Shown piece after piece: positions 2,982 through 30,298 of a stretch of DNA of 32,679 nucleotides. The notes under the pieces were generated by a model. The model had not been told where the DNA came from and made no database searches. It was given only the letters and a program-made list of their open reading frames with translations. The stretch is taken from IMG/VR virus record IMGVR_UViG_3300042691_028401, positions 1-32,679 of that record. One strand, given 5' to 3'. The translations under genes and the position numbers were made by a program. Within the stretch, counting starts at the first letter, position 1. Every line of letters starts with the position of its first letter. Origin of the DNA: a virus.

Positions 2982-5034
2982 GATCTTCTGCGCACAATAC
3001 TACTGTTTTAACTTGTTTTCTAGATGGAGGTGCTGGTTCATCTGTTCTTCTAAATTCCAAAGTTGGTTCAAGAATTGCACCTTGACCTGTTGTAGTATTT
3101 ATTTGCAAGTCTGGGAAAAGATTTACTGAAGATCCTGGATTTACTACATTAATACTAATGATTCTTCCAACATCATCAACCTCTGGGTATGCTTCTATGT
3201 CATTATTGCATCTTGCATCTACAATTTTATCAGTATTCTTATATCCCACCCCAGTAAGTTTGACTGAGATATCTTTAATGCTTCCAGTAACTTCTAATCC
3301 AGAGTCAGTAGTAGGATATGTTTGGCAAGCATCACCTTCTTCATTAACTGGAGGAGATTTATATCCTTTTCCAGGACCTGGAATGATAATATCAGTCACT
3401 TTACCATCCTTGATCTTAGTATAACCATAAGCACCACCACCCTGTTCTCCACAATTACTATCTATAGAAACAAATGGTGGTGTTGTGTATCCAGAACCAG
3501 ATGACTCTACTATTGCACCAATAATTTGTCCTGCAGAACTTACAACTGCTTGTGCTGATGCTCCAGATCCACCACCTCCAAAAATTGTAATGGTTGGGAA
3601 ACCACACTCTATAATACCAGCATTGCAGGAGAATTCAGAACCTGGAGGAATTGTACCATCAGTAGAAAGTCCAACAGAACCTGCCCAAGATCTAAAATTG
3701 CCTGAAACAGAAGATATTCCAGAAGAAATTGAAGATGAATAGTTGAGAATTTTTTGGAAATCTGGATTACTAGCAGGAATCCATCCCTTGTTTAATTCAT
3801 AATCATAATCTTCATAACAAGTGGGAGACTCACAAGAAAGAAGAGACAATAATGTTCTAGTAAATGAAACTGCTCTAGAAACAATAGAAGATACTTGTCC
3901 TATTGATGATCCTAACAATGAAGTTATTTTATTCAATGCTCCACCAAGAGATTCAGATAATTCATTGGAAAGAGTTCCAAGTAAATTTCCTAAAAGTGCT
4001 TCAGCAGCACAGATTGGAGCACTCAAAACTTGACCTACCATTGAAGTCAAGAAATTGATTACATAATTTAAAATTTGACTGAATATTTTTTCAAAGGCAC
4101 ATAAGATGCTATCAATAACAGTTTCAGTGGCAGCATGTTTTGCAATTTTTACTACTGGAGGTACTCCTGGAGTTCCAAAGAAATCTGTCAGTAAATTATA
4201 AACTCTTTTTATAATTTCCTCTCTTCCCCACTTCAATATTCCTATCAACTCATCTTTTATTGTTGTTGCTACATTTAATATTACATCATCAATATTTGCT
4301 ACTGCATTTAAAGTTGGATTAATGTAAACATTGTTTATAATTTGAATTGTGTTTAAAAATTGTATGAACTTTACCAGTGCTCTTTGAATGGCATTAAATT
4401 TTCTTTTTCCTGAGGCACATTCTGCTGGAACAGAAATGATGACACTATTTGGTCCCTCTAAATTGGATACTGCTTGACCTTGAGTTATTGCTCTTTCTTC
4501 TTTTGAAGTTGATCCTATTCCAACAGGACTTTTACCTTGTGCTATTTGTCCTTTATTTCCTATCCCACCCTTTGCAGTAACTATTCTTCCATTGGTAGCA
4601 ATTACATAACCACTTGTTCCTTGAGGGGGAGTGAATGGTTTAAATGATGATGTCCCTTTGCTTAAAACTTCACTCCAAGTTTGATTTGGATTTTGTTGTC
4701 CAATATCACTATTTTGAAGAGCACCAACAATAACTGGTTGCTGCTCATCATCTCCATCCAAGAAAAATCCAACTACAATTTCACCACCATTCCAATTATT
4801 TGATATTCCACTATATCCATTTCCTGCTCCAAGAGTTAGTGGTGTTAATACATGTGCCCAAGGTAAATTCTCATCCTTAATCTGATTGTCTGCAGGATGA
4901 CGTCCTAATATTCTAACTCTTGCTCTAGCACCTTTAGAAGAGTCTTTAGAATTATAAACTATCTGTCCTATAAACCAATTAAATCCATCTCTTCCTAAGA
5001 ATTGAGGATTAATTAAGGATTGTTCTAACATCAT
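2974..5034 (-). CDS. 5: gp5-type baseplate hub/spike protein without lysozyme domain
   Basis: A 686-residue protein. Residues about 15-110 form the gp5 OB-fold (FIGQIVYNSKDSSKGARARV, LPWAHVLTPLTLG, GFFLDGDDEQQPVIVGAL), the hub domain also found in VgrG. T4 gp5 has a lysozyme domain next; here residues about 205-430 are instead long hydrophobic amphipathic helices with no lysozyme motif. Residues about 490-670 hold three copies of a repeat of the form xxGxIxxIxxxxxGxGYxxxPxV, a beta element seen in cyanophage virion proteins. The protein should sit at the centre of the baseplate beneath the tail tube. Start ATGATG with the upstream gene overlapping by four bases. Confidence 0.85.
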   Translation of the reverse strand: MMLEQSLINPQFLGRDGFNWFIGQIVYNSKDSSKGARARVRILGRHPADNQIKDENLPWAHVLTPLTLGAGNGYSGISNNWNGGEIVVGFFLDGDDEQQPVIVGALQNSDIGQQNPNQTWSEVLSKGTSSFKPFTPPQGTSGYVIATNGRIVTAKGGIGNKGQIAQGKSPVGIGSTSKEERAITQGQAVSNLEGPNSVIISVPAECASGKRKFNAIQRALVKFIQFLNTIQIINNVYINPTLNAVANIDDVILNVATTIKDELIGILKWGREEIIKRVYNLLTDFFGTPGVPPVVKIAKHAATETVIDSILCAFEKIFSQILNYVINFLTSMVGQVLSAPICAAEALLGNLLGTLSNELSESLGGALNKITSLLGSSIGQVSSIVSRAVSFTRTLLSLLSCESPTCYEDYDYELNKGWIPASNPDFQKILNYSSSISSGISSVSGNFRSWAGSVGLSTDGTIPPGSEFSCNAGIIECGFPTITIFGGGGSGASAQAVVSSAGQIIGAIVESSGSGYTTPPFVSIDSNCGEQGGGAYGYTKIKDGKVTDIIIPGPGKGYKSPPVNEEGDACQTYPTTDSGLEVTGSIKDISVKLTGVGYKNTDKIVDARCNNDIEAYPEVDDVGRIISINVVNPGSSVNLFPDLQINTTTGQGAILEPTLEFRRTDEPAPPSRKQVKTVVLCAEDHE

Positions 5035-16672: not shown

Positions 16673-17266
16673 TTATTTTCCCCCAACAATGGATCTCAAC
16701 ATACTCTTATAAATTCCCACATCAATATTTAGAAATGGAGAATACTTTTTAATTTTTAAAGATATAGTTTCCCACACTGGATCTAAAAGTTTTTTATCAA
16801 ATTCTTTTCCAACTTTAAATATTTTATCATAAACAACTAATGTTTCTATACAAATATTCCCCTTCAAAAAATTCTTAACTATTGGTGGATGTTGCTTTGA
16901 GCAATCAAATAATTCATTTAAATCATACTCAGACAACAGTTGTTCTGATTGTTCTTTAACCAAATAAGTCAAACTCTGTTGTCTTTTCTTCCAAGACACA
17001 AAGGTAGATTCTCCTGTTCTGATAATCTCTCCAATCCACAATCTTCCAGGATCATCTACCTCAACAAAATTTGCTATGAAAAAATTCTTTATATCCTCAT
17101 CACTCTTTTGTCTGGATAGTTTCTCATACCAATACCTATCCTTACGTTTATTGAAAGACTCTATTGATGCTCTAGTCTTACCTGCATATTTGATGTAATC
17201 ATAACTTGGTTTACTAAAATGATTTTTAAGTGCTAGGTAAGTTCTATAAGCATCAAAAGGTGTCAT
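16673..17266 (-). CDS. 59: Helicase loader gp59
   Basis: A 197-residue protein of the gp59 family. It begins MTPFDAYRTYLALKNHFSKP, with the pattern DYIKYAGKTRASIESFNKRK-DRYWYEKLS that in T4 gp59 reads YDVIKYNW...RRDKYFFQKLS. Next come FFIANFVEVDDPGRLWIGEI and a helical C-terminal half ending LNIDVGIYKSMLRSIVGGK. gp59 binds forked DNA and gp32 and loads the gp41 helicase. Gene order gp32 - (DUF1825) - gp59 - gp33 matches T4's 32-59-33 apart from the inserted gene. Four-base overlap with gp33 upstream. Confidence 0.85.
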   Translation of the reverse strand: MTPFDAYRTYLALKNHFSKPSYDYIKYAGKTRASIESFNKRKDRYWYEKLSRQKSDEDIKNFFIANFVEVDDPGRLWIGEIIRTGESTFVSWKKRQQSLTYLVKEQSEQLLSEYDLNELFDCSKQHPPIVKNFLKGNICIETLVVYDKIFKVGKEFDKKLLDPVWETISLKIKKYSPFLNIDVGIYKSMLRSIVGGK

Positions 17267-17520
17267 ATCAAAAGTTTAGCTCTAGATGTACGTTTCAAAA
17301 AGTTTAAATTAATAGCATCACATTTAAGTTTTTCCTTAAGTGGTTTGCTAATCAATTTGGATACAGAATCAACTTCTATATTGTTCTGCTCACAATAGTA
17401 TACTACTGCATCAATATAATTCATATCACTATTGACCTTTACCAAGTCTTCAATGATATTAGAAAATTTTGCTTGACATAAAAACTTTGTCTCTAATGCT
17501 TTTTCTAATTTATTTTCCAT
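17263..17520 (-). CDS. 33: Late transcription co-activator gp33 (probable)
   Basis: An 85-residue protein, close to the size of T4 gp33 (112). Helical and charged, it ends KLKCDAINLNFLKRTSRAKL, a C-terminal segment typical of cyanophage gp33 as I recall it. T4 gp33 bridges host RNA polymerase, the gp55 late sigma factor and the sliding clamp. Position directly upstream of gp59 matches T4. This fits the late-type boxes seen elsewhere in the window. The start overlaps the exonuclease gene by eleven bases. Sequence similarity in this family is weak, so identity leans on gene order. Confidence 0.7.
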   Translation of the reverse strand: MENKLEKALETKFLCQAKFSNIIEDLVKVNSDMNYIDAVVYYCEQNNIEVDSVSKLISKPLKEKLKCDAINLNFLKRTSRAKLLI

Positions 17521-18187: not shown

Positions 18188-18945
18188 TAGAACCCTGCTG
18201 CCATTTTATTTACAATATAGGATTTAACAAGACCAGATCTTACAATATCCTCAACACCAAATTCAATTGATTCAAATTCAGGCATTCTTTGAATGATTTT
18301 CATAAAGTCTAGAATACCATTCCTTTCATTAGTCTTGGTAAGATCAGTTTGAGTTGCATCACCACAGAAGACAATTCTGGAGTTATCACCAACCCTAGTA
18401 ATTATACTATCAAGTTCATGGAAGTTCAAGTTTTGTGCTTCATCAACAATGATAATTGAATTGTCTAAAGTTGTACCTCTGATAAAAGATGTACTCCAGA
18501 AAGTAATTGTTTCTTGCTGCTTCAGATTACCATAGAGCATTTCAAATGAAGCATCATCTGGCATCTCAAACATATACTTTACCATATTCTTATAAGGAAT
18601 TTGATAAAGTGCAGATTTATCATCATGGTCTCCAGGAAGGAAACCAATCTCCCTAGTGGCAACTAGAGATCTTACAATCACAATCTTTTGATATGGAGTA
18701 ATCTCACTGAGAACATCTTTGAGTGCTAAGTAAAGAGCACAGAATGTTTTACCTGTTCCAGCACATCCATACACAAACAAATGTTTGTCTGAATTGTAGG
18801 CATCAAAAAGTTTAGTTTGATTTTGTGTTACTGGATTAATATCACAAAGGAAATCTGTATTGATTGGTTTCCTTCTCTTCATTTGCTTTGCTGTCATGCC
18901 AATTCCAATTGGCTGCAAATCATTGTTTCTTCTTTTTCTTGCCAT
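18187..18945 (-). CDS. phoH: PhoH-like ATPase
   Basis: A 252-residue P-loop protein. Walker A is GCAGTGKT (60-67) and Walker B IIIVDEAQN (Asp168-Glu169), with the PhoH region STSFIRGTTLDNS before it and FCGDATQTDL (sensor/motif III) after. PhoH proteins are ATPases, in some cases RNA helicases fused to nucleases; in marine phages phoH is common and often linked to phosphate stress, though its role in infection is not proven. The N-terminal 45 residues are basic. It overlaps both neighbours by one base. Confidence 0.9.
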   Translation of the reverse strand: MARKRRNNDLQPIGIGMTAKQMKRRKPINTDFLCDINPVTQNQTKLFDAYNSDKHLFVYGCAGTGKTFCALYLALKDVLSEITPYQKIVIVRSLVATREIGFLPGDHDDKSALYQIPYKNMVKYMFEMPDDASFEMLYGNLKQQETITFWSTSFIRGTTLDNSIIIVDEAQNLNFHELDSIITRVGDNSRIVFCGDATQTDLTKTNERNGILDFMKIIQRMPEFESIEFGVEDIVRSGLVKSYIVNKMAAGF

Positions 18946-19187
18946 TAGATTTTCTTTACACGGGAACCTGGAGCTTTACTTGCCTTGGCAAGTACATCAT
19001 TCCATCCTGGATTTCTGCTGATTAGTTTGTTTCTCCAATCACCAGTCTCTCCAGGACTTGCACAACCTTCAGACCAATCTCTTTTCCATTCAGGATTGTC
19101 TTTGTACCATTGAGTGATCTCATGAACACTCATCTCAACTTCTTTCTTTTCTCCAGTTTTTGTATTAATAATTGGATAAATTGCCAA
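18945..19187 (-). CDS. Small conserved cyanophage protein (80 aa)
   Basis: Begins (M)AIYPIINTKTGEKKEVEMSV and continues with WYKDNPEWKRDWSEGCASPG and NPGWNDVLAKASKAPGSRVK. I chose the TTG start at 19187 because it is eight bases after a perfect AGGAGG (19196-19201). The alternative GTG at 19194-19196 overlaps that site and cannot use it. The ending (GW.DVL...PGSRVK) resembles FmdB-type small proteins without their zinc ribbon; I recall relatives in other cyanophages but no function. The ribosome site overlaps the stop codon of the HNH gene, so that insertion kept this gene's translation signals intact. Confidence 0.75.
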   Translation of the reverse strand: MAIYPIINTKTGEKKEVEMSVHEITQWYKDNPEWKRDWSEGCASPGETGDWRNKLISRNPGWNDVLAKASKAPGSRVKKI

Positions 19188-19199
19188 AATTTTCACCTC

Positions 19200-19709
19200 C
19201 TAAATTATGTGTTTGTAAGCAGATGCTTTTCCCTTTCTTATTTGACAAATTAAAGAGGGAGCCACTTTATATTTATTGGCAAGTATAACACCTTTTTCAA
19301 AACTAGATTTAATTTCTTTTACTTGTTCATCTGTCAATTTTCTTTTCGTTTGTCTCATTCTTTCTATTGCTTCGGGAGAGCAGCATATTTTTCCCTTTAA
19401 TGCTTTACTTCTGTTCATTTTATGCTCTTCACTTTGCTTCCTTCCCTTCAATTTGGTTGCAGGATGTGGTTGATTTTTAGTAACCTCTTTCATCCTATCA
19501 TAACCTATTCTAGATTTAATTTTTTGAATTTCTTCATTTCCTATCTGCCCAGATAAACATTTCCAAGCAAGATGATCTCTATCATCCTTTTTTCTAGTCC
19601 ATTCAGCATAATGCCACATAGCGTGTTGAGTGGTAGTCAATTCAACAAGATTTTCTTGCAAATTACTACCACCTTCATATCTTGGTATGATGTGATGTTT
19701 GTGCTTCAT
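19200..19709 (-). CDS. HNH homing endonuclease with NUMOD3-like repeats
   Basis: A 169-residue protein starting MKHKHHIIPRYEGGSNLQEN: the HHIIPR...G....NLV.L....H...H pattern is the HNH nuclease of seg/mobile phage enzymes. Residues about 95-125 have NUMOD3-like DNA-binding motifs (KLKGRKQSEEHKMNRSKALK), and the end is a helix-turn-helix (SFEKGVILANKYKVAPSLIC). An in-frame extension upstream runs into thyX, but the start at 19709 is five bases after AGGA, so the shorter form is chosen. It separates thyX from the small gene at 18945. Its ribosome site is hidden in a hairpin with a built-in late promoter (see 19710-19748). Confidence 0.85.
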   Translation of the reverse strand: MKHKHHIIPRYEGGSNLQENLVELTTTQHAMWHYAEWTRKKDDRDHLAWKCLSGQIGNEEIQKIKSRIGYDRMKEVTKNQPHPATKLKGRKQSEEHKMNRSKALKGKICCSPEAIERMRQTKRKLTDEQVKEIKSSFEKGVILANKYKVAPSLICQIRKGKASAYKHII

Positions 19710-19748
19710 TTTTATCCTGTTATATATTTTATTTATAACAGGATAAAA
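19710..19748 (-). promoter_or_regulatory. RBS-hiding hairpin with embedded late promoter
   Basis: A perfect 15-bp inverted repeat (19710-19724 and 19734-19748) with a nine-base loop lies between the thyX stop and the HNH ATG. The Shine-Dalgarno AGGA is within the 3' arm, so in RNA read through from thyX it is paired. The late box TATAAATA (19730-19737) spans the loop and 5' arm; transcription starting six or seven bases downstream begins about 19724, just after the 5' arm, leaving the ribosome site free. The same design controls T4 I-TevI. Confidence 0.85.
19730..19737 (-). promoter_or_regulatory. Late promoter for the HNH gene (TATAAATA)
   Basis: Exact T4 late consensus on the minus strand, 20 bases upstream of the HNH start codon and inside the hairpin described at 19710-19748. 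It would give a short leader of about 15 bases carrying the unpaired AGGA. Confidence 0.75.
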
Positions 19749-19755
19749 CTTCAAA

Positions 19756-20418
19756 TTAAATGACCCACTCAAGAGCCTTTGCAGCATCTGGGAATTGTTC
19801 ATTGAAGATTTCTCTACACCCTTCAGCAATCTCCATATGTTCTTTCTGGGTTCCATGGGCAGAACGAAGATTGATATAATGTATCCAAGACCTACAAGAA
19901 CCAGTCATATAAATCCTGGTTGGAGTTGCAAGGGGAAGAATAAATCTAGCACATTCTTTTGCTACTCCTTGAGAAAGAAGTCTGTTGTAAATTGCCTGAC
20001 CTTTAATAAAGTATTCTTGAATTTCACTTTGAAGTGTGAGTTTCAGATAACCATCTAGATCATCAGTAGAATTCTGACGATTTTTGGTATCCTGTCTACG
20101 AAGTTCAGGAACTTTTGCTACATCTGATAGCAGATTAGTATCAGCATACCTCTGTGAAAATTCCTGGAAAGTGAATGATCTATGACGAAGTACTTGAGCT
20201 GCAATACCTCTGGTAGTATTAATCTCAAGTGTCATAAAAGCATGTTCAAAGATACTCCAGTGCTCATGCTTGATGCAATACTTAAGAAGACCAGCAGAAG
20301 TATCAAAATTTAATTGATTGCTTGGATTACTAACTCTGGCAATATATGAAATCACTTCTTGTGCATTTGCATTGATAAGTTCTCCAGCACCTTGAGTGAT
20401 TGAAATTAGTTTAATCAT
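19756..20418 (-). CDS. thyX: Flavin-dependent thymidylate synthase ThyX
   Basis: A 220-residue ThyX. The signature is RHRSFTFQEFSQRY (Arg78-Tyr91), the RHR motif that binds FAD and dUMP; the cyanobacterial-type Thr replaces the usual Ser. Other family parts are EHWSIFEHAFMTLEI and YMTGSCRSWIHYINLR near the C-terminus. It methylates dUMP to dTMP using methylenetetrahydrofolate and NADPH and so supplies dTTP for phage DNA. Length is normal. The start overlaps the stop of the upstream small gene by four bases. The HNH endonuclease follows directly; T4's thymidylate synthase gene (td, unrelated fold) also hosts a homing endonuclease. Confidence 0.95.
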   Translation of the reverse strand: MIKLISITQGAGELINANAQEVISYIARVSNPSNQLNFDTSAGLLKYCIKHEHWSIFEHAFMTLEINTTRGIAAQVLRHRSFTFQEFSQRYADTNLLSDVAKVPELRRQDTKNRQNSTDDLDGYLKLTLQSEIQEYFIKGQAIYNRLLSQGVAKECARFILPLATPTRIYMTGSCRSWIHYINLRSAHGTQKEHMEIAEGCREIFNEQFPDAAKALEWVI

Positions 20419-21051: not shown

Positions 21052-21106
21052 AGGTTTGCTCCTTTACTAACAGTAAATTTGCGTTCCTTCGGTATTCCTA
21101 CTTCCG

Positions 21107-21128
21107 TTTGCTATTTGCAAATAGCAAA
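21107..21128. repeat. 22-bp perfect palindrome in a promoter-leader region
   Basis: TTTGCTATTTG directly followed by its reverse complement. It lies between a candidate promoter (21136-21163) and the gene at 20914-21051, so it could be an operator or form a hairpin in the leader. No T-run follows on either strand, which speaks against a terminator. Confidence 0.75.
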
Positions 21129-21135
21129 TGAACGT

Positions 21136-21163
21136 ACTATATCTATAAGAATAATTTTGTAAA
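21136..21163 (-). promoter_or_regulatory. Candidate sigma-70 promoter for the small-gene unit
   Basis: TTTACA, 16-base spacer, TATAGT on the minus strand. The start would be near 21129, at the edge of the 22-bp palindrome, leaving a leader of about 80 bases before the ATG at 21051. The stretch 21052-21176 has no gene and holds this promoter, the palindrome and a purine-rich leader. Confidence 0.5.
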
Positions 21164-21523: not shown

Positions 21524-21850
21524 TTATCTTTCAATGTAACTTAAAGTGTGATCCTTGGCATAAAGTTGATGGATGATCATATCACAACCAATCTTAGGAT
21601 TACAATCACCACAGGTATAGACATCTACTGCAGCTTTGCCTTCTTCTGGCCAAGTATGAATGCTGATATGACTTTCCGATAGAAGACAAATTACAGTGAC
21701 GCCTTGTGGTTCAAACTTCTTTGATATAGTTTGAACCACAGTAGCACCACTAGCAACTGCTGCATTCTCCAATAAATCTATAAGGCATTTCTCATCATCA
21801 AGAAGGACAAAGGAACAACCATATAAATTAAGTAAATAGTGCTTTCCCAT
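21524..21850 (-). CDS. speD: S-adenosylmethionine decarboxylase SpeD
   Basis: A 108-residue enzyme of the prokaryotic (class 1B) type. LSESHISIHTWPE holds the Glu59-Ser60 self-cleavage site that creates the pyruvoyl cofactor and the catalytic His65; TCGDCNP holds the catalytic Cys80. These line up with Ser63/His68/Cys83 of the Thermotoga enzyme. It makes decarboxylated AdoMet, the aminopropyl donor for spermidine. It is a frequent auxiliary gene of cyanophages; polyamines may help DNA packing or host physiology, which is conjecture. The start overlaps the stop of the upstream gene by one base. Confidence 0.95.
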   Translation of the reverse strand: MGKHYLLNLYGCSFVLLDDEKCLIDLLENAAVASGATVVQTISKKFEPQGVTVICLLSESHISIHTWPEEGKAAVDVYTCGDCNPKIGCDMIIHQLYAKDHTLSYIER

Positions 21851-29050: not shown

Positions 29051-30130
29051 TCAACCAATTGCAGGTGCAGTGAGAGCAACAGGAGTGCTATCAGCAGCAG
29101 CAAGGTCAAGTGGGAAGTTGTGAGCGTTGCGCTCGTGCATCACTTCCATACCCAGACCACCACGATTCAGAATATCTGCCCAAGTATTAATTACATGACC
29201 TTGGCTATCTTGGATTGACTGATTGAAGTTGAAACCATTCAGGTTGAATGCCATCGTGCTAACTCCAAGAGCAGTGAACCAAATACCAACAACAGGCCAA
29301 GCAGCCAAAAAGAAATGTAGAGAGCGAGAGTTGTTGAAGGACGCATATTGGAAAATCAAACGACCAAAGTAACCATGGGCAGCAACGATGTTATAAGTCT
29401 CTTCTTCTTGACCAAACTTATAACCATAGTTCTGTGACTCATTTTCAGTGGTTTCACGAACCAGTGAAGAAGTAACCAGAGAACCATGCATAGCAGAGAA
29501 CAGTGAACCACCAAAGACACCAGCAACTCCAAGCATATGGAAGGGGTGCATCAGGATGTTGTGTTCTGCCTGGAACACAAGCATGTAGTTGAAAGTACCA
29601 GAAATGCCAAGAGGCATGGCATCAGAGAAAGAACCTTGACCAAAAGGATAGACCAGGAATACTGCAGAAGCAGCAGCAACAGGTGCAGAGTATGCAACAC
29701 AGATCCAAGGACGCATACCTAGACGGTAAGAAAGTTCCCACTCACGACCCATATAGGCATAGATACCAATCAGGAAGTGGAACACTACAAGTTGGAAAGG
29801 TCCACCATTGTAGAGCCATTCATCTAGGGAAGCAGCTTCCCAGATGGGGTAAAAGTGCAATCCAATAGCATTGGACGAAGGAACAACAGCACCAGAGATA
29901 ATGTTGTTTCCATACATCAGAGAACCAGCAACTGGTTCACGAATTCCATCAATGTCAACAGGGGGAGCTGCAATGAAAGCAACAATGAAGCAGATAGTTG
30001 CTGCGAGCAATGTTGGAATCATCAGGGTTCCAAACCACCCAACATAAAGTCTGTTGTCAGTTGAAGTAACCCAGTTGCAGAATTGTTCCCAAGTATTAGA
30101 TTGTCTTTGTTGTGAAATTGTAGCAGTCAT
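29051..30130 (-). CDS. psbA: Photosystem II D1 protein PsbA
   Basis: A 359-residue complete D1 protein. It has five membrane helices, starting near [20 protein letters not shown], the primary donor Tyr161 and His190 region ([15 protein letters not shown]), the quinone pocket ([18 protein letters not shown]-type) and the manganese cluster ligands in [16 protein letters not shown] at the C-terminus, with the cleavable tail ending APAIG. Phage D1 replaces the short-lived host protein so that photosynthesis continues and powers phage growth. Base composition is clearly richer in G and C than the neighbours, consistent with transfer from a host. Not interrupted by any intron. Confidence 0.98.
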
Positions 30131-30180
30131 TTTTTAAAAGAGTAAGTAGATCCATCAGGGACATGGTGGAATTACTTATT

Positions 30181-30251
30181 TCCTAGACACCCTTATTCTA
30201 GGATATGAGAGACGTGATTTATACTCCCCATAGGTCTCGGTTAATGGGAGT
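30181..30251 (-). promoter_or_regulatory. Structured leader of psbA
   Basis: The roughly 160-base leader between promoter and psbA ATG (30131-30292) has no gene. It contains two hairpins: 30181-30187 with 30197-30203 (TCCTAGA/TCTAGGA), and 30223-30231 with 30244-30251 (ACTCCC.AT/ATGGGAGT with one bulge). Near the ATG there is no Shine-Dalgarno, so folding or host factors may control translation. Inferred only. Confidence 0.45.
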
Positions 30252-30298
30252 TACAAAGATTAAAGAACTGTTACATTCCTTAACCTGTTGATGTATTT

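Follow-up and report, generated by a model that had tools for sequence, protein, structure and literature searches.

Is the free-standing HNH endonuclease gene that lies directly behind thyX in this phage expressed only late in infection, and, if so, by what means? The window (the whole stretch of 32,679 nt that we analyzed) is a fragment of a T4-like cyanophage and encodes PhoH, gp33, gp59, psbA, and baseplate genes. On its minus strand, thyX is followed by a hairpin, the HNH gene, a small regulator gene, phoH, an exonuclease gene, and the gene for gp33. A sequence-only reading had proposed that the hairpin is an I-TevI-style switch. We consider it very probable that an RNA hairpin and a T4-type late promoter together limit translation of the HNH gene to late infection. 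The features that matter here are:

19756-20418, minus strand: thyX, full length and intact (PF02511, 2.5e-45)
19734-19748, minus strand: 5' arm of the hairpin, which the predicted late RNA would lack; also the left boundary of the block that the window has in common with the relative L003
19730-19745, minus strand: TATCCTGTTATAAATA, which comprises the promoter and 5'-arm sequence
19730-19737, minus strand: TATAAATA, a late promoter of the T4/cyanophage type, split evenly between the 5' arm (4 nt) and the loop (4 nt)
19724, minus strand: predicted late transcription start, 6 nt past TATAAATA, giving a 15-nt 5' UTR (from T4 late promoter geometry and modeling)
19710-19724, minus strand: 3' arm of the hairpin, which carries the ribosome site
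19715-19718, minus strand: AGGA Shine-Dalgarno site, five bases before the ATG at 19709
19200-19709, minus strand: homing-endonuclease-like HNH gene, 169 amino acids (HHIIPRYEGGSNLQEN..TQH; phrog_655, 1.6e-13)
19163-19178, minus strand: TATCCAATTATTAATA at the start of the regulator gene, similar to TATCCTGTTATAAATA; the two are a candidate pair of homing site and operator
18945-19196, minus strand: small "transcriptional regulator" gene, next after the HNH gene (phrog_385)
17263-17520, minus strand: gene for a gp33-type late promoter coactivator (phrog_254, 4e-28)

The sequence elements are as first described: a perfect 15-bp inverted repeat whose 3' arm holds the HNH gene's only ribosome site, the AGGA at its spacing from the ATG, and a late-promoter motif across the loop and the 5' arm. 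The arms pair at 15 of 15 positions around a 9-nt loop, and when extended to 18 nt they are 94% complementary. Across 40 copies that a first-order Markov model generated from the window, no arms of at least 13 bp with a loop of at most 12 nt occurred; for arms of at least 12 bp, the average was 0.025 per copy. The window itself contains one other long inverted repeat (21705-21740), with perfect 13-bp arms and a loop of 10, which lies inside an S-adenosylmethionine decarboxylase ORF. The RNA from 19660-19770 (minus strand) folds at -27.8 kcal/mol (z = -5.07), and none of 200 shuffles did as well. The late promoter of cyanophage S-PM2 is NATAAATA (PMC2984593). By itself, the presence of TATAAATA is weak evidence, since it occurs 6 times in the window and 3.5 occurrences are expected, so the weight rests on its conservation.

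The proposed mechanism depends on two transcripts. As the gene upstream of the HNH gene, thyX is expected to be transcribed early, presumably as a member of the early class. It is on the same strand, its end is 7 nt from the hairpin, and a terminator scan found no convincing terminator between it and the HNH gene. RNA that reads through from thyX would contain both arms; the 3' arm with the ribosome site would be paired, and the HNH gene would not be translated. Late polymerase (gp55/gp33/gp45) would start near 19724, where the 3' arm meets the loop, and the resulting RNA, which would lack the 5' arm, would leave the ribosome site open and allow the endonuclease to be made. The gp33 gene indicates that this phage has a T4-type late transcription machinery. 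We did not find gp55 in the window, which is a fragment; a late sigma factor is annotated in the related phage DSL-LC03. Because the stop codon of thyX is 7 nt from the 5' arm, ribosomes that terminate there might partly open the hairpin, and reinitiation could follow.

Folding the read-through RNA, as the sequence-only reading had suggested, gave the expected contrast. As in T4-type switches, the ribosome site is paired within the 3' arm in the predicted fold of the longer RNA, and the promoter is placed so that the late RNA, from its predicted start, would lose the 5' arm and free the site. The modeled cost of opening the AGGA is 13.3 kcal/mol in the read-through RNA versus 0.1 in the late RNA, for which the model placed the start 6 nt past the promoter. 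In one truncated fold, set by the 3' end that was chosen, the ribosome site of the late RNA pairs more weakly with coding sequence instead; this pairing is absent with other 3' ends. The timing, the start site, and the effect on translation are what we infer from these models and from the sequence.

We then compared 22 leaders: those of the 20 closest homologues in IMG/VR (57-98% amino acid identity), that of L233, and that of the window. They include near-duplicates (L010/L011, L016/L017, L020/L021, and L004/L005) and represent 15 distinct arm pairs. All 22 have TATAAATA at 28-30 nt before the start codon, and all 22 keep the hairpin over the ribosome site. Close relatives with the HNH gene but without the hairpin would have spoken against the switch, and there were none among the 22. 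The mean modeled cost of opening the ribosome site is about 10.7 kcal/mol in the read-through RNAs versus 0.2 in the late RNAs. Across the leaders, 94% of the stem cells are paired, versus 32-56% when the partners are slid. Two stem pairs show two-sided changes: the outermost pair alternates between C-G and U-A, and L022 has A-U for G-C. Several changes lead to G-U. The covariation stands out only modestly from shuffled columns (cells paired, 17/500; pairs with two-sided changes, 79/500), since the 5' arm doubles as a promoter and hardly varies. The weakest cases are L006, which has lost the ribosome-site match and much of the stability (opening costs 4.1 kcal/mol), and L019-L021, which have a weaker ribosome site, TGGAT. 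In the leaders of L009, L017, and L018, the 16-mer that contains the promoter is also found on the opposite strand (in L009, with one mismatch); given this symmetry of the palindrome, the late promoter could also fire antisense into thyX.

Among distant homologues of the HNH protein, the switch seems to be missing. When we looked for homologues at the thyX site without the hairpin, a wider search returned the same close set; distant relatives were checked as a sample. For distant HNH homologues at other locations, 0 of 44 distinct leaders contained the switch. Several of these genes sit behind late structural genes, and in some, a terminator followed by a late promoter takes its place. This fits a device that is needed where the gene is embedded among early genes.

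This type of control is already known: hairpins with late promoters have been described for I-TevI, I-TevII, I-TevIII, segB, Aeh1 mobE, and the T4 genes e, soc, and 49 (PMC2988022, PMC3014915), and the window's control works like that of I-TevI/II/III, segB, Aeh1 mobE, e, and 49. As a positive control, we ran the same scan on T4 (1-75 kb). The top cases were I-TevII (ddG of 11.9) and lysozyme e (10.1); gene 49 was found when NATAAATA was allowed (7.7), and soc scored low (ddG of 0.7). The recovery of known T4 cases, the modeled contrast between the two RNAs, and the conservation in 22 of 22 leaders all support the late-only switch. In I-TevI/II/III of T4, as predicted for the window, the ribosome site is sequestered on RNA from upstream promoters by a hairpin combined with a late or middle promoter, and the position of the late promoter leaves the 5' arm out of late RNA (PMC2988022). 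However, those genes are in group I introns, and I-TevI and I-TevII are GIY-YIG enzymes, whereas the window has a free-standing HNH gene behind an intact thyX. Closer in arrangement are mobE of the Aeromonas phage Aeh1 and segB of T4, which are free-standing endonuclease genes with a hairpin over the ribosome site (PMC2988022, PMC3014915); but mobE is in nrdA, segB is a GIY-YIG gene in a tRNA region, and both differ from the window's gene in hairpin sequence and insertion site. The T4 genes e, soc, and 49 are late genes on early or middle transcripts, with the ribosome site in a hairpin and a late promoter in its 5' strand (PMC3014915), but they are not mobile endonucleases of this kind. We found no description in the open-access literature of such control for a cyanophage endonuclease, so control that was known mainly from T4 and Aeromonas phages can now be extended to endonuclease genes of cyanophages.

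The HNH protein is not a relative of I-TevI: it is HNH-type, without the GIY-YIG domain and group I intron of I-TevI, the thyX ORF is intact, and an Rfam scan found no intron family. It does have an HNH motif and homology to homing endonucleases (phrog_655), with invariant residues H5-H6, N16, N20, and H29, and it is 31% identical to T6 MobE (the window's protein is P0001). Its match to Pfam's HNH model (0.0041) is below the cut-off, and a profile search of PDB gave only weak matches to the HNH domain of IscB. For an AlphaFold model (mean pLDDT of 77, pTM of 0.38), Foldseek found no meaningful match in PDB. From this weak but consistent homology, we infer that the protein is probably an endonuclease.

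The distribution of the gene is what would be expected for a homing endonuclease: it is present or absent at a fixed site, and it has moved between divergent genomes. All 20 homologous loci have the order thyX, HNH, regulator, phoH, except that another gene takes the place of thyX in L006 and L014 (in L014, a divergent thymidylate synthase) and L013 has an extra gene after thyX. The differing upstream sequences had suggested many insertion sites, but this was rejected, as all 20 loci share one site. In none of the 80 thyX loci nearest to the window's thyX did we find the HNH gene, and in most of these, the regulator is 6-90 nt downstream of thyX. Comparing the junction in phages with and without the gene, another suggested check, showed that the regulator directly follows thyX in relatives that lack the HNH gene; DSL-LC03, for instance, has a thyX-regulator junction without an HNH gene of the window's type. 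The window and L003 are identical at 42 of 42 positions from the hairpin to the ATG and 98% identical in the HNH gene, versus 65% for thyX, 73% for the regulator, 70.5% for phoH, and 71% for the exonuclease gene. On the left, the boundary of the shared block falls no more than a few bases from the 5' arm; on the right, it is some 50 nt inside the regulator gene. Such identity between divergent flanks implies that the gene brought its switch along, which is what homing with co-conversion of the flank would produce. By these alignments, the hairpin, the promoter, and the HNH gene are inherited and transferred as one cassette inserted between thyX and the next gene.

A second HNH family in DSL-LC03 and other phages has the same design. 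We scanned eight promoters with a start codon in DSL-LC03, and the only strong candidate was an annotated HNH endonuclease gene (40846-41256) whose protein has no sequence similarity to P0001. In this family's main set of 10 leaders, the hairpin TAGTAGACCTTATAAATA...AAGGTCTACT is directly before the ATG and includes three pairs with two-sided changes; the gene lies just before tRNA-Thr(UGU) in 10 of 10. The upstream flanks differ (34 of 45 pairs have no match). L387 is an eleventh, degenerate member. As in the window, the hairpin covers the start region of an HNH gene, contains a late promoter, and forms the left end of a mobile unit; unlike in the window, the start codon directly abuts the stem, and neither the protein nor the hairpin is similar. 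The idea that the control travels with mobile endonucleases is thus supported by the transferred block, by this second family with its own hairpin, and by its differing upstream flanks. Independent evolution, the other suggestion, is likely for the differing hairpin sequences, but the control reaches beyond I-TevI, with free-standing Aeh1 mobE (an HNH gene) and segB already having it. Whether an endonuclease gene that invades an early operon is tolerated only if it stays silent early has become testable, with natural variants, with DSL-LC03 as a relative that is free of this HNH gene, and with the second, unrelated family. In DSL-LC03 (L286, 40770-40846), the hairpin comes after an apparent 5' half of a tRNA (TGTGTAGCTCAGTTGGATAGAGCAACGGTTTTGAAA), which is absent from ARAGORN's output and is possibly a tRNA truncated by the HNH insertion.

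The strongest competing explanation, which we regard as possible but doubtful, is that the palindrome acts as DNA: it would be an operator over the late promoter for the HNH protein (autorepression) or for another dimeric protein, with the RNA hairpin as a by-product. In its favor, TATCCTGTTATAAATA, the 16-nt core of promoter and 5' arm, is similar to the beginning of the downstream regulator gene (codons Y-P-I/V-I/V-N), the likely target side; the similar stretch lies about 21 nt after the HNH stop codon. Across 17 loci, the regulator start matches the 16-mer at a mean of 12.06 of 16 positions, which is the best of 4,508 aligned positions on both strands (z = 5.6; the next-best position has 10.0, z = 4.0), and the match stops sharply at the ends of the 16-mer. 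HNH-free relatives reach up to 15 of 16 matches there, and I-TevI has such an operator, which resembles its homing site at 15 of 20 positions and overlaps the late promoter (PMC2988022). On the other hand, the matches in the regulator gene fall largely at positions that its protein sequence fixes. The similarity is not better in HNH-free than in HNH-bearing phages (12.37 versus 12.14 of 16), and the association between the HNH gene and the YPxxN-type start is weak, because most HNH-free loci have that start too. The second HNH family has a different hairpin, and we saw no target mimicry in it. Also, the ribosome site is in the 3' arm of every leader, and the changes to G-U preserve pairing in RNA but break the symmetry of the DNA. 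An operator is compatible with the RNA switch, and both may act. A homing site at the regulator start together with an operator in the leader would explain both the 16-mer match and the extent of the transferred block, and we treat this as a lead. More speculatively still, the same 16-nt stretch could be a late promoter, the arm that silences early RNA, and a mimic of the endonuclease's target, so that the enzyme would shut off its own late promoter. If so, T4-like phages of aquatic bacteria would repeatedly have evolved units of hairpin and late promoter, unrelated in sequence, as the left end of mobile HNH cassettes. The regulator start, through its likeness to the promoter, is also a concrete candidate for the cut site.

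It is improbable that the repeat serves as an end sequence for insertion of the cassette (by recombination or target duplication) rather than for expression. The left edge of the block shared with L003 does coincide with the 5' arm, and the HNH gene is flanked by an imperfect 16-bp direct repeat, made up of the 5'-arm core on one side and the regulator start on the other. But the hairpin is not repeated at the right end, the regulator would lose its start codon if the direct repeats recombined, and the promoter and the position of the ribosome site are conserved, as expected for expression control. We rejected the reading of the repeat as an intrinsic terminator of thyX, which is very improbable: although it is 7 nt past the thyX stop codon, the stem is not followed by a T run on either strand, the terminator scan gave a weak, unrelated candidate, genes downstream in the presumed operon need read-through, and the late promoter within every copy would be left unexplained. 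The chance that an AT-rich repeat merely coincided with TATAAATA, which is expected 3.5 times per window, is negligible, given that the Markov copies contained no comparable arms and that both elements are kept in 22 leaders across 57-98% protein identity.

Similar hairpin sequences before unrelated genes are partly forced: once the 5' arm contains a TATA and the 3' arm an AGGA, TCCT..TATA has to stand opposite TATA..AGGA. Exact matches to ATCCTGTTATAAATA in viral contigs were mostly due to chance, but nine were part of such a hairpin, in front of an unrelated gene. This hairpin, with TATAAATA and a nearly identical stem (AATCCTGTTATA/TATAACAGGATT), is found before a different gene in other T4-like phages (L281 at 4986-5021, L210, L253, L224, L226, L265, L276, L178, and L180); in L281, the gene behind it encodes head-tail adaptor Ad2.

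Single cases of other hairpins before ORFs that were found by HNH queries include L328/L329, L337, L414, and L075. In the leaders of L414 and L409, the 5' arm (GGTAGAG/GGTAGAAC) resembles a tRNA D-arm, which suggests that host tRNA sequence may serve as the repressing arm. L075 (1543-2238, on a contig shared with L462) has a 232-amino-acid HNH/NUMOD3 gene with GATAAATA in the hairpin before it. The neck-like gene immediately downstream begins with codons (MATITNREDFTNYC) that the first codons of this gene (MATITNWNDFKSYC) mirror, and the start of the downstream gene seems to have been copied into the cassette.

The window also contains two known RNA families, both on the minus strand. An intergenic glutamine riboswitch aptamer (21078-21136; Rfam, 54.1 bits, gathering threshold of 35) is upstream of small ORFs, and a PhotoRC-II RNA (30168-30263; Rfam, 79.6 bits) is directly upstream of psbA (29051-30130).
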